A DNA stretch of 64,000 nt, from positions 1-64,000 of the forward strand of contig NZ_SGXJ01000003.1 of NCBI RefSeq assembly GCF_004216905.1, written 5' to 3'. The DNA is from Kribbella sp. VKM Ac-2569. GTDB taxonomy: Bacteria; Actinomycetota; Actinomycetes; Propionibacteriales; Kribbellaceae. The position numbers were made by a program, and so were the translations under genes. Below are positions 61,914 to 64,000 of this stretch, piece by piece (within the stretch, counting starts at the first letter, position 1; each line of letters begins with the position of its first letter). Below the pieces are notes generated by a model, which searched no databases, was not told the DNA's origin, and saw only the letters and a list, made by a program, of their open reading frames with translations.

Positions 61914-62849
61914 TCAGCAGACGGAAAGCCCAGCGATCGCGGCGATGACCTTGTCCCAGAAGGCGTCCCGGTCGAGGTCGACGGCGATCTGTGCGTTCGC
62001 GGGGCGGCCGGTGTAGCCGTCCAGATCCACGACCGTCGCGCCGGCGGTCCACTCGCCGGCGGTTTCGATCACCAGATTCGCCTCGACGCACCGGACGATC
62101 GCAGGATCGATCACCCGCGCCACCGCGACCGGATCGTGCAGCGGCGGCGCCTCGAACCCGAACAGCTCCCGGTACGTCGACGCGAAGAACGTCATCCACT
62201 CGCTGCAGATCCGCGCCAACGGCGACCCGATCGCCTCGAGCCGCGCGAGTACGTCGTCCGTCACGAGCGCCTGATGTGTCACGTTCAAGCCACACATCGT
62301 GAACGGAACGCCCGATCGAACCACCACGTCGGCCGCCTCCGGATCGACGTACGCGTTGGCCTCGGCAAGCGGCGCGATGTTGCCACGCTCGGTGGACCCG
62401 CCCATCCAGACGATCTCGGTGATGTTCGCGGCCAGACCAGGTTCATCGACGAGCAGCCGCGCGATGTTCGTCAACGCGCCGGTCGCGACGATCGTTGCCG
62501 GTTTCGAGCGCAGTACGTCGACCAGCAGCTCGTGCGCCGAGTACGGCGACTCCGGGACCGACGGCTCGTCCGTGAACTGCGGACCGTCGAGCCCGGTGCG
62601 GCCGTGGACGTCGTCGGCGATGCGCAACCGGCGTACCAACGGCCGATCGGCGCCCCGCGCGACGGGGATGTCGGATGCACCCGCGAGGGAGAGGACGCGG
62701 CGCGCGTTCACGGTGCATTTGTCGACGGTCTGGTTGCCGGCCACGGTCGTCACGGCGAGGAGTTCGACGGCCGGATCGGCGACCGCGAGCAGGATCGCCA
62801 GCGCGTCGTCGTGGCCGGGATCGCAGTCGAGGATGAGAGGCCCGGTCAT
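61914..62849 (-). CDS. Nucleoside hydrolase (IUNH family)
   Basis: A 311-residue inosine-uridine-preferring nucleoside N-ribohydrolase. The Ca-binding signature DCDPGHDDALAILLA is at residues 8-22. The family pattern VTTVAGNQTVDKCTVNARRVLSLAG is complete, with VATGALTNIARLL and WMGGSTERGNIAPLAEANAYVDPEAADVV. It splits nucleosides into base and ribose. The gene's GGGAGG ribosome site and ATG lie inside one arm of a hairpin element (62844-62937), which would hide them in the mRNA. It is upstream of the ClpP-like gene by 65 bases on the same strand. Confidence 0.92.
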   Translation of the reverse strand: MTGPLILDCDPGHDDALAILLAVADPAVELLAVTTVAGNQTVDKCTVNARRVLSLAGASDIPVARGADRPLVRRLRIADDVHGRTGLDGPQFTDEPSVPESPYSAHELLVDVLRSKPATIVATGALTNIARLLVDEPGLAANITEIVWMGGSTERGNIAPLAEANAYVDPEAADVVVRSGVPFTMCGLNVTHQALVTDDVLARLEAIGSPLARICSEWMTFFASTYRELFGFEAPPLHDPVAVARVIDPAIVRCVEANLVIETAGEWTAGATVVDLDGYTGRPANAQIAVDLDRDAFWDKVIAAIAGLSVC

Positions 62850-62937
62850 GGGGCCTCCCGGCCTGGACTGAGGAGCGGAGCGACGAGGGAAGGCCGGGAG
62901 TCACAGCCCCATGACCCGCCGCGCCGGAGGCGTGGCA
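62844..62937. repeat. Repeated hairpin element, copy 2
   Basis: A 94-base copy of the element at 48352. Terminal arms GGTCATGGGGC (62844-62854) and GCCCCATGACC (62906-62916) are identical to copy 1. The inner stem CTCCCGGCCT/AGGCCGGGAG (62855-62864 with 62891-62900) has two compensating changes. It lies between the divergent nucleoside hydrolase and ftsH genes and includes the hydrolase start codon. Confidence 0.8.
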
Positions 62938-63025
62938 TCAAGACAGCCATGCGACAGGGTACGACGGCCGCTCAAGCTGGGAGTTGTTGCTGGGTCCGTG
63001 GGGATTCAGGTCCTATGTTGGCTTC

Positions 63026-64000
63026 ATGAGCGAGAAGGAGCCGCCGGCGAAGGACGAGTCCAGCGCCGACCGGGGCCAGGGTGCCGACCAGGGTGACCGG
63101 AAGAACGACGGACCGCAGCGGCCGCACAAGCCCTGGCGGACCGAGGGACTGCCGGCCGGGCACGGTGACGACGACAAGCCTCGCCGGCCGCGGTGGTGGA
63201 AGTGGGGCGCGTGGATCGTCGGCGGGTACCTGGTGCTCTTCCTGCTCACCACGATGCAGGACCAGATGTCCGGCGGCGAGCAGACCATCGCCTACACCGA
63301 CTTCACCGTGCAGGTGCAGAAGCAGAACGTCGCCGAGATCTTCTCCCGCGGCGACACCATCGAGGGCCGGCTGAAGCAGGCTGCGGAGGTGCCGGGCAAG
63401 AGCGGGTCGACGTACACGAAGTTCACCACCGAGCGGCCGACGTTCGCCAACGACAACCTGTACGGCGACCTGCAGAAGGGCGGCGCGACAGTCCGGGCGA
63501 CGCCGGTGGTCGCGCAGCGCGGCGTGCTGTTGAACCTGCTGATCTCGCTCGGCCCGTTCATCCTGATCGCCGCGTTCTACTTCTGGCTGTTCCGGCGGAG
63601 CCGGGCCGGTGGTGGACTGGGCGGCGGTCTGGGCGGTCTGCTCGGCGGCGGTGGCCAGCAGAAGAAGCCGGTCGACCCGAGCACCGTGCGGGTCACGTTC
63701 GCGGACGTCGCGGGGATCGACGAGGTCGAATCCGAGATCGAGGAGGTCGTCGACTACCTCAAGGACCCGGAGAAGTACCGGCGGCTCGGGGCGCGGGCGC
63801 CGAAGGGCGTGCTGCTGGCCGGCGCGCCCGGGACCGGGAAGACGCTTCTCGCACGGGCGACCGCGGGTGAGGCGGGGGTGCCGTTCTTCTCCGCGAGTGC
63901 CTCGGAGTTCATCGAGATGATCGTGGGCGTCGGTGCGAGCCGGGTGCGGGAGCTGTTCGGCGAGGCGCGGAAGGTGGCGCCGGCGATCATCTTCATCGAC
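63026..64000 (+). CDS. ftsH: ATP-dependent zinc metalloprotease FtsH (5' part, cut by window edge)
   Basis: The first 325 residues of FtsH, the membrane AAA+ protease. A long charged N-terminal tail (1-56) precedes TM1 (about 61-79, [15 protein letters not shown]), the extracytoplasmic domain, and TM2 (about 172-192, [22 protein letters not shown]). The linker is Gly-rich, then [28 protein letters not shown] opens the AAA domain. The Walker A is GAPGTGKT and IIFID starts the Walker B. The Zn motif HExxH lies beyond the window. ATG at 63026 follows TATGTT by seven bases, so the mRNA may be leaderless. Confidence 0.93.

Follow-up and report, generated by a model that had tools for sequence, protein, structure and literature searches.

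A mobile palindromic element inserts at start codons in Kribbella and probably keeps the interrupted genes translatable through a coupling frame of its own

Start codons are among the worst sites for a DNA insertion. Here, we describe a palindromic, non-coding-sized, mobile element of about 100–120 bp from the soil-dwelling genus Kribbella, where it targets start codons, mostly RTGAC or a close variant. It carries a Shine–Dalgarno-like ribosome site (SD), a start codon and a small coupling frame, and comparison of its copies makes it likely that the interrupted gene is kept translatable by translational coupling and that the hairpin of the element is no switch. Two copies lie in the window, the stretch of 64,000 nucleotides of Kribbella sp. 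VKM Ac-2569 that was analyzed (contig NZ_SGXJ01000003.1), and one of them holds the start of a nucleoside hydrolase gene.

The hydrolase start lies in two nested perfect stems, an outer one of 11 bp and an inner one of 10 bp, with exact arms. All features given here are on the minus strand. The insert of approximately 101 bp occupies 62844–62945, with ends uncertain by a few bases, and is preceded by ATGGC (62946–62950), the original start codon region and now the start of an upstream frame. Following the strand, the element contains a small upstream hairpin, GCCACGC-CTCCG-GCGCGGC, with one A.C mismatch (62918–62936), the 5' outer arm GGTCATGGGGC (62906–62916), the 5' inner arm CTCCCGGCCT (62891–62900), a conserved loop that is 18 bp, a multiple of three, shorter here than in most copies (62865–62890), the 3' inner arm AGGCCGGGAG (62855–62864), which contains most of the ribosome site, and the 3' outer arm GCCCCATGACC (62844–62854) with the new start codon (hydrolase ATG at 62847–62849). 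The inner arms pair with each other, and 62844–62854 pairs exactly with 62906–62916. The ribosome-site-like GGGAGG (62854–62859) is supplied by the element, is present in most Kribbella copies and has five of its six bases inside the inner stem. The original prediction, made from the sequence of the window, had placed the hydrolase ATG in an arm of the terminal stem and GGGAGG in the inner stem, and both placements are correct. The identity of the gene (61914–62849, an ORF of 311 aa) is upheld by its match to PF01156 (E 1e-98); its divergent neighbor is an FtsH-type protease gene. Overlooked at the time was a frame of 34 aa (62846–62950) that crosses the whole element and ends on a TGA (62846–62848) overlapping the hydrolase ATG, and the same frame is found in copies genus-wide.

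In isolation the hairpin is unremarkable. Its fold z-score is only -1.67, for which reason folding energy alone was dropped as proof of its significance, and perfect inverted repeats of 11 bp within 90 bp number 11 in the GC-rich window, compared with 4 to 14 in 20 first-order random sequences. The hairpin is beyond chance because it recurs, with 28 copies in the genome and arms that change together across copies.

Empty sites reveal what was inserted and where. Among the 19 genomes with a close ortholog, the hydrolase locus is filled in the genome of the window (G000), G029 and G034 and empty in the other 16, which include G017, G024, G022, G032 and G026. Empty sites read ...TACCCTGGCGC-ATG-GCC-AGA-CCT, and filled sites read ...GGCGC-ATGGCTGTA-TTGATGCC...GGGAGGCCCC-ATG-ACC-CGG-CCT; at the junctions, ...GGCGC-ATGGCC has become ...CGC-ATGGC-[element]-ATGACC. 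To account for the filled state, the hydrolase gene tree requires three changes, of which well-supported branches force at least two, and therefore either insertion at the same codon recurred or copies were lost. When 23 other loci of G000 were compared with their orthologs (up to three genomes each), 21 had at least one element-free ortholog, and these comprise 18 insertions on the start codon, two in early codons (L005 at about codon 5 and L023, MutY, at about codon 10) and a single intergenic one. The latter is the other copy in the window (L010, 48352–48474), upstream of a PhoX-like gene. Altogether, 25 of the 28 copies in G000 are at gene starts, the exceptions being L010, L019 and the decayed L028. 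Hence, the earlier proposal that a mobile palindrome had supplied the start of the gene is strongly supported by the dispersed copies, the empty sites and the old start codon, which is retained as the start of the upstream frame.

Old copies decay, judging by two orthologs in G017: that of L002 resembles a footprint (ATGACCGTACTGACC), and that of L013 (L156) has an internal deletion after which the frame, as read from the sequence, still ends on ATGA. Where the 5' junction is RTGA or TTGA (n = 111), its TGA closes an upstream frame of at least 150 codons in 65 cases, versus 5 and 31 in the other two frames, a distribution that fits insertion at ATGA-coupled gene pairs and would be expected with coupled operon junctions as frequent targets. 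RTGRC-like pentamers, a candidate target-site duplication, are found on both flanks of the element; depending on the locus, the 3' pentamer agrees with the target or with the arm, and it often differs from the target. Terminal inverted repeats of the MITE type are absent from the alignment, in which the 5' arm begins approximately 30 bases inside the 5' junction and the ends are not inverted copies of each other. At several loci the first bases of the 3' flank differ from those of empty orthologs, as if a few target bases had been overwritten.

A search of G000 with a 101-base query gave 29 matches, and a covariance model built from 58 copies gave 28. This model detected the family in 28 of 38 Kribbella genomes, at 1 to 64 matches per genome, and not in the other 10; the family search covered the genus Kribbella only and scored at most 22 candidates per genome in the first round and at most 93 in the covariance round. 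In a class-wide sample of 296 genomes, 10 besides G000 gave weaker matches. Repeats with the same loop, a like small hairpin and other arms occur in Virgisporangium, Thermocatellispora, Nonomuraea, Actinomadura and Actinoallomurus, and the string GGAGG-CCCC-ATGAC was not found in the repeats of other genera at the 33 loci picked by loop pattern or at 20 more that were inspected. One copy, compared with plasmids and phages at blastn sensitivity, had no match. The downstream ORFs of 27 copies in G000 (26 and the hydrolase) were scanned, and all except those at L002, L004 and L028 (24 ORFs) have a Pfam match. They include a PdxT-type SNO protein, a HhH-GPD base-excision protein (MutY-like), a complex I membrane subunit, FecCD, GH67, a DUF2264 protein, Cons_hypoth95 (RsmD-type) and diacylglycerol kinase, with no common pathway apparent. 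Because the genes at the insertion sites are unrelated, the copies do not mark a regulon.

A typical copy ends at its 3' side in GGGAGGCCCCATGACC, a new ribosome site followed by a start, so that the gene behind it receives an SD-like GGGAGG and a new ATG or GTG. From the old start codon, a small frame of roughly 34–42 aa leads through the two arms and the loop to its stop, a TGA that shares bases with the new ATG (ATGA). We divided 161 distinct copies into 136 that face an ORF of at least 100 aa (gene-facing), 18 whose ORF is shorter than 60 aa, and 7 that belong to neither class, their ORFs being intermediate in length or open; this frame count excludes copies whose 3' arm was not recognizable or whose upstream sequence was too short. 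Start, TGA overlap and open frame (at least 36 codons) are preserved together in 134 of 136 gene-facing copies versus 11 of 18 others (Fisher p 2.8e-6, with independence overstated, given that many copies are mutually orthologous). The two gene-facing exceptions are L072 (ATGGCC, no TGA) and L222 (start lost). New start codons in the gene-facing copies are ATG in 122, GTG in 13 and GCG in 1, and the start codon has been lost in 5 of 18 non-gene copies versus 1 of 136. In 120 of the 136, a purine follows ATGACC.

Substitutions point the same way. Only copies 111 bases long were used for the substitution and pair counts, 124 in total, of which 106 are gene-facing and 15 are not, and among 592 substitutions in the 106 gene-facing copies none creates a stop, versus 13.4 expected by permutation, a comparison in which orthologs inflate independence; for unique substitutions only, the count is 0 versus 2.3 expected (P 0.05). 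Frameshifted but compensated versions (MTVLNAAPPARGSWGC) retain the small frame, and 133 of 136 gene-facing copies have core lengths that are congruent modulo 3. Part of this intactness of start and frame is inherited from the consensus.

The stems are conserved as pairs. In an alignment of 58 of 105 diverse copies, the proportion of paired cells is 97.3%, both sides have changed in 79 cells versus a shuffled mean of 21, 13 of 28 base pairs covary with changes on both sides, and there are only two one-sided standard changes. Covarying arms, the pairing of SD and ATG predicted by the fold model and the attenuator-like position of a small frame ahead of the gene are what could be expected of a regulatory RNA switch, in which the stem would hide both signals until it was opened by a ligand, by temperature or by stalling within the small frame. 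A ligand- or temperature-sensing switch was the other possibility raised by the original prediction, and we now regard it as highly improbable: the host genes share neither function nor pathway, no Rfam family matches the window, and the element is absent from most orthologs. In addition, the outer stem is paired as well without a gene behind it (98.8% of 165 cells) as with one (98.4% of 1166 cells). Given this equality, it is most likely not as a gene switch that the hairpin is maintained, and several non-gene copies, L210 and L270 among them, have lost the ATG and kept the pairing. The non-standard cells of the 124 equal-length copies are also not those expected from selection on a sense-strand helix, with G.U (8) rarer than A.C (80, or 21 without one widespread polymorphism). 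Selection on the stem at the RNA level was likewise judged weak as a cause of the covariation, because wobble intermediates are nearly absent. The stem data fit correction or selection of the palindrome in DNA and not a sense-strand RNA switch; most likely, the hairpin is kept for mobility of the element, or by arm-to-arm correction of the DNA palindrome, rather than for regulation.

The concern behind the switch proposal, that SD and ATG are both paired if the mRNA begins upstream of the element, is a fair one. The frame itself suggests an answer, in that translation from the old ATG through the hairpin would open it. At the hydrolase locus, transcription would begin at or near the old ATG and the transcript would probably be leaderless, with TACCCT (62956–62961), five bases before the ATG, as a possible -10 hexamer; relatives, both empty and filled, have a similar hexamer at this distance. 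A sigma-70 promoter and terminator scan at the locus gave no match. Ribosomes loaded at the old start would translate the small frame (34 codons at the hydrolase) and unwind the hairpin that otherwise would hide the new SD and ATG. They would then stop at the TGA of ATGA and restart the real gene at the overlapping ATG by translational coupling, helped by GGGAGG. In this way the element would mend at the level of translation the gene that it breaks, and insertion would be tolerable because the small frame and the new start would restore translation by coupling.

The same copies could be regarded as a neutral mobile repeat that inserts at random RTGAC sites, with copies within genes being lost and the small frame and start arising by chance without function. 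The target motif does look like a gene start common in actinobacteria, 18 of 161 copies are intergenic and the related repeats of other genera are without SD and ATG. However, the start and the frame have decayed where no gene follows the copy but not in copies at genes, and the insertions at codon 5 (L005) and at about codon 10 (L023) would break their genes unless the new start were used, which makes this explanation very unlikely. As for the origin of the element, its palindromic form, dispersal and single-copy insertions would suit a REP/RAYT-type repeat or a MITE derived from an insertion sequence, mobilized by a resident Y1 transposase, IS110 or reverse transcriptase. We consider this origin unlikely. 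Although REP/RAYT repeats are also short dispersed palindromes, no element-bearing genome among the 38 examined has a Y1 transposase; Y1_Tnp is found in one of the 38, and that genome is without the element. Reverse transcriptase (RVT_1) is present in seven, three of them without the element, and IS110 is absent from the element-rich G013, G017, G024 and G034 but present in the element-free G003 and G031. All three candidates were rejected as the mobilizer, given that none tracks the element across the 38 genomes. Furthermore, a search of G000 with the left-end pattern revealed no longer parent, as all 20 exact matches lie in known copies.

The start-codon element may owe its choice of site to its own arm. 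L066, L072 and L084 end in ATGACA, ATGGCC and ATGAGT, respectively, and the 5' arm of each is altered to fit, with one G.T in L084. Empty orthologs read ATGACA for L066, ATGGCC or ATGGCT for L072, and GTGAGT or GTGAGC for L084; of eight L066 orthologs, one has ATGAGT and four have ATGACC or ATGACT, and of eight L072 orthologs one (L346) is itself filled. The arm likewise matches an atypical target, ATGATC/T, in L024 and L027. At the hydrolase, L002, L006 and L025, targets that were ATGGCC or ATGAGC now read ATGACC. One tentative and rather doubtful interpretation is that the 5' arm (GGTCAT) acts as a base-pairing guide, whereby a single-strand or guided transposition system would pick start codons (RTGACC) by pairing and heteroduplex mismatches would be repaired either way. 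Such a guide would explain both the five atypical targets with matching 5' arms and the other targets that were changed to ATGACC, but these data would be accounted for equally by selection or by correction between the arms at a later time.

The closest known system is the MIRU (mycobacterial interspersed repetitive unit), with which we claim likeness and not membership on a comparison by description only. According to a 2025 review (PMC12548453), MIRUs seem to be mobile and to insert at start codons, and the ORF within them is coupled to the gene at -4 nt, likely limiting the damage; translational coupling through hairpins and -4 overlaps is documented there as well, and in bacteriophage f1 VII/IX the upstream frame passes through a hairpin and has a -4 nt overlap with the next start. 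The Kribbella element is similarly a short dispersed repeat, apparently mobile, with insertion at start codons (18 of 21 loci and the hydrolase) and an internal ORF whose stop overlaps the gene start (134 of 136). Unlike MIRUs, it belongs to another genus, has its new SD and ATG paired within a strong nested palindrome, and has a conserved loop of its own that is shared with repeats of other actinobacterial families. With f1 VII/IX it has in common the hairpin-crossing upstream frame and the -4 nt overlap, but there the gene pair is fixed and here the cassette is mobile. Rickettsia palindromic elements, described in a review (PMC10969869) as palindromes of approximately 150 bp with a conserved peptide, are also tolerated at genes, but they fuse in frame inside the protein, whereas the frame of the Kribbella element is separate and stops over the gene start. 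A search of the literature on Kribbella repeats, palindromes and insertion sequences found no report of the element; subscription papers, including the original MIRU paper, were outside that search.

The element thus appears to be a mobile element specialized in start codons by means of its own ribosome site, start codon and coupling frame, with a palindrome that pairs with the very site it enters, and it is apparently a separate, independent example of the MIRU principle. Because the family copies seen in other genera have different arms without these signals, one can follow how a plain repeat became a specialist for gene starts. For annotation, the N-termini of dozens of genes per genome are shifted in some species. 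The insertions also offer natural replicates with empty-site controls for the study of translational coupling.

Some further observations concern the locus and the wider family. The divergent ftsH-type gene (window 62990–63029) has TATGTT six bases before its ATG and, like the hydrolase, may be leaderless. A 65-aa match to the hydrolase N-terminus with 81% identity at G002:C1:3590572-3590763 is possibly a gene fragment. The loop common to the wider actinobacterial repeat family is CTTCCCTCGTCGCT...CTCCTCAGTCCAG, accompanied by a small 5' hairpin and other arms (non-Kribbella loci within L200–L275; L318–L337). Related repeats form tandem arrays in Thermocatellispora, and at L335–L337 (G278) the loop of a related repeat contains an extra perfect inverted repeat, AAGATCGC...GCGATCTT. 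At L046, L210, L265 and L282, a copy is nested within the loop of another copy, after GGTCGCT.
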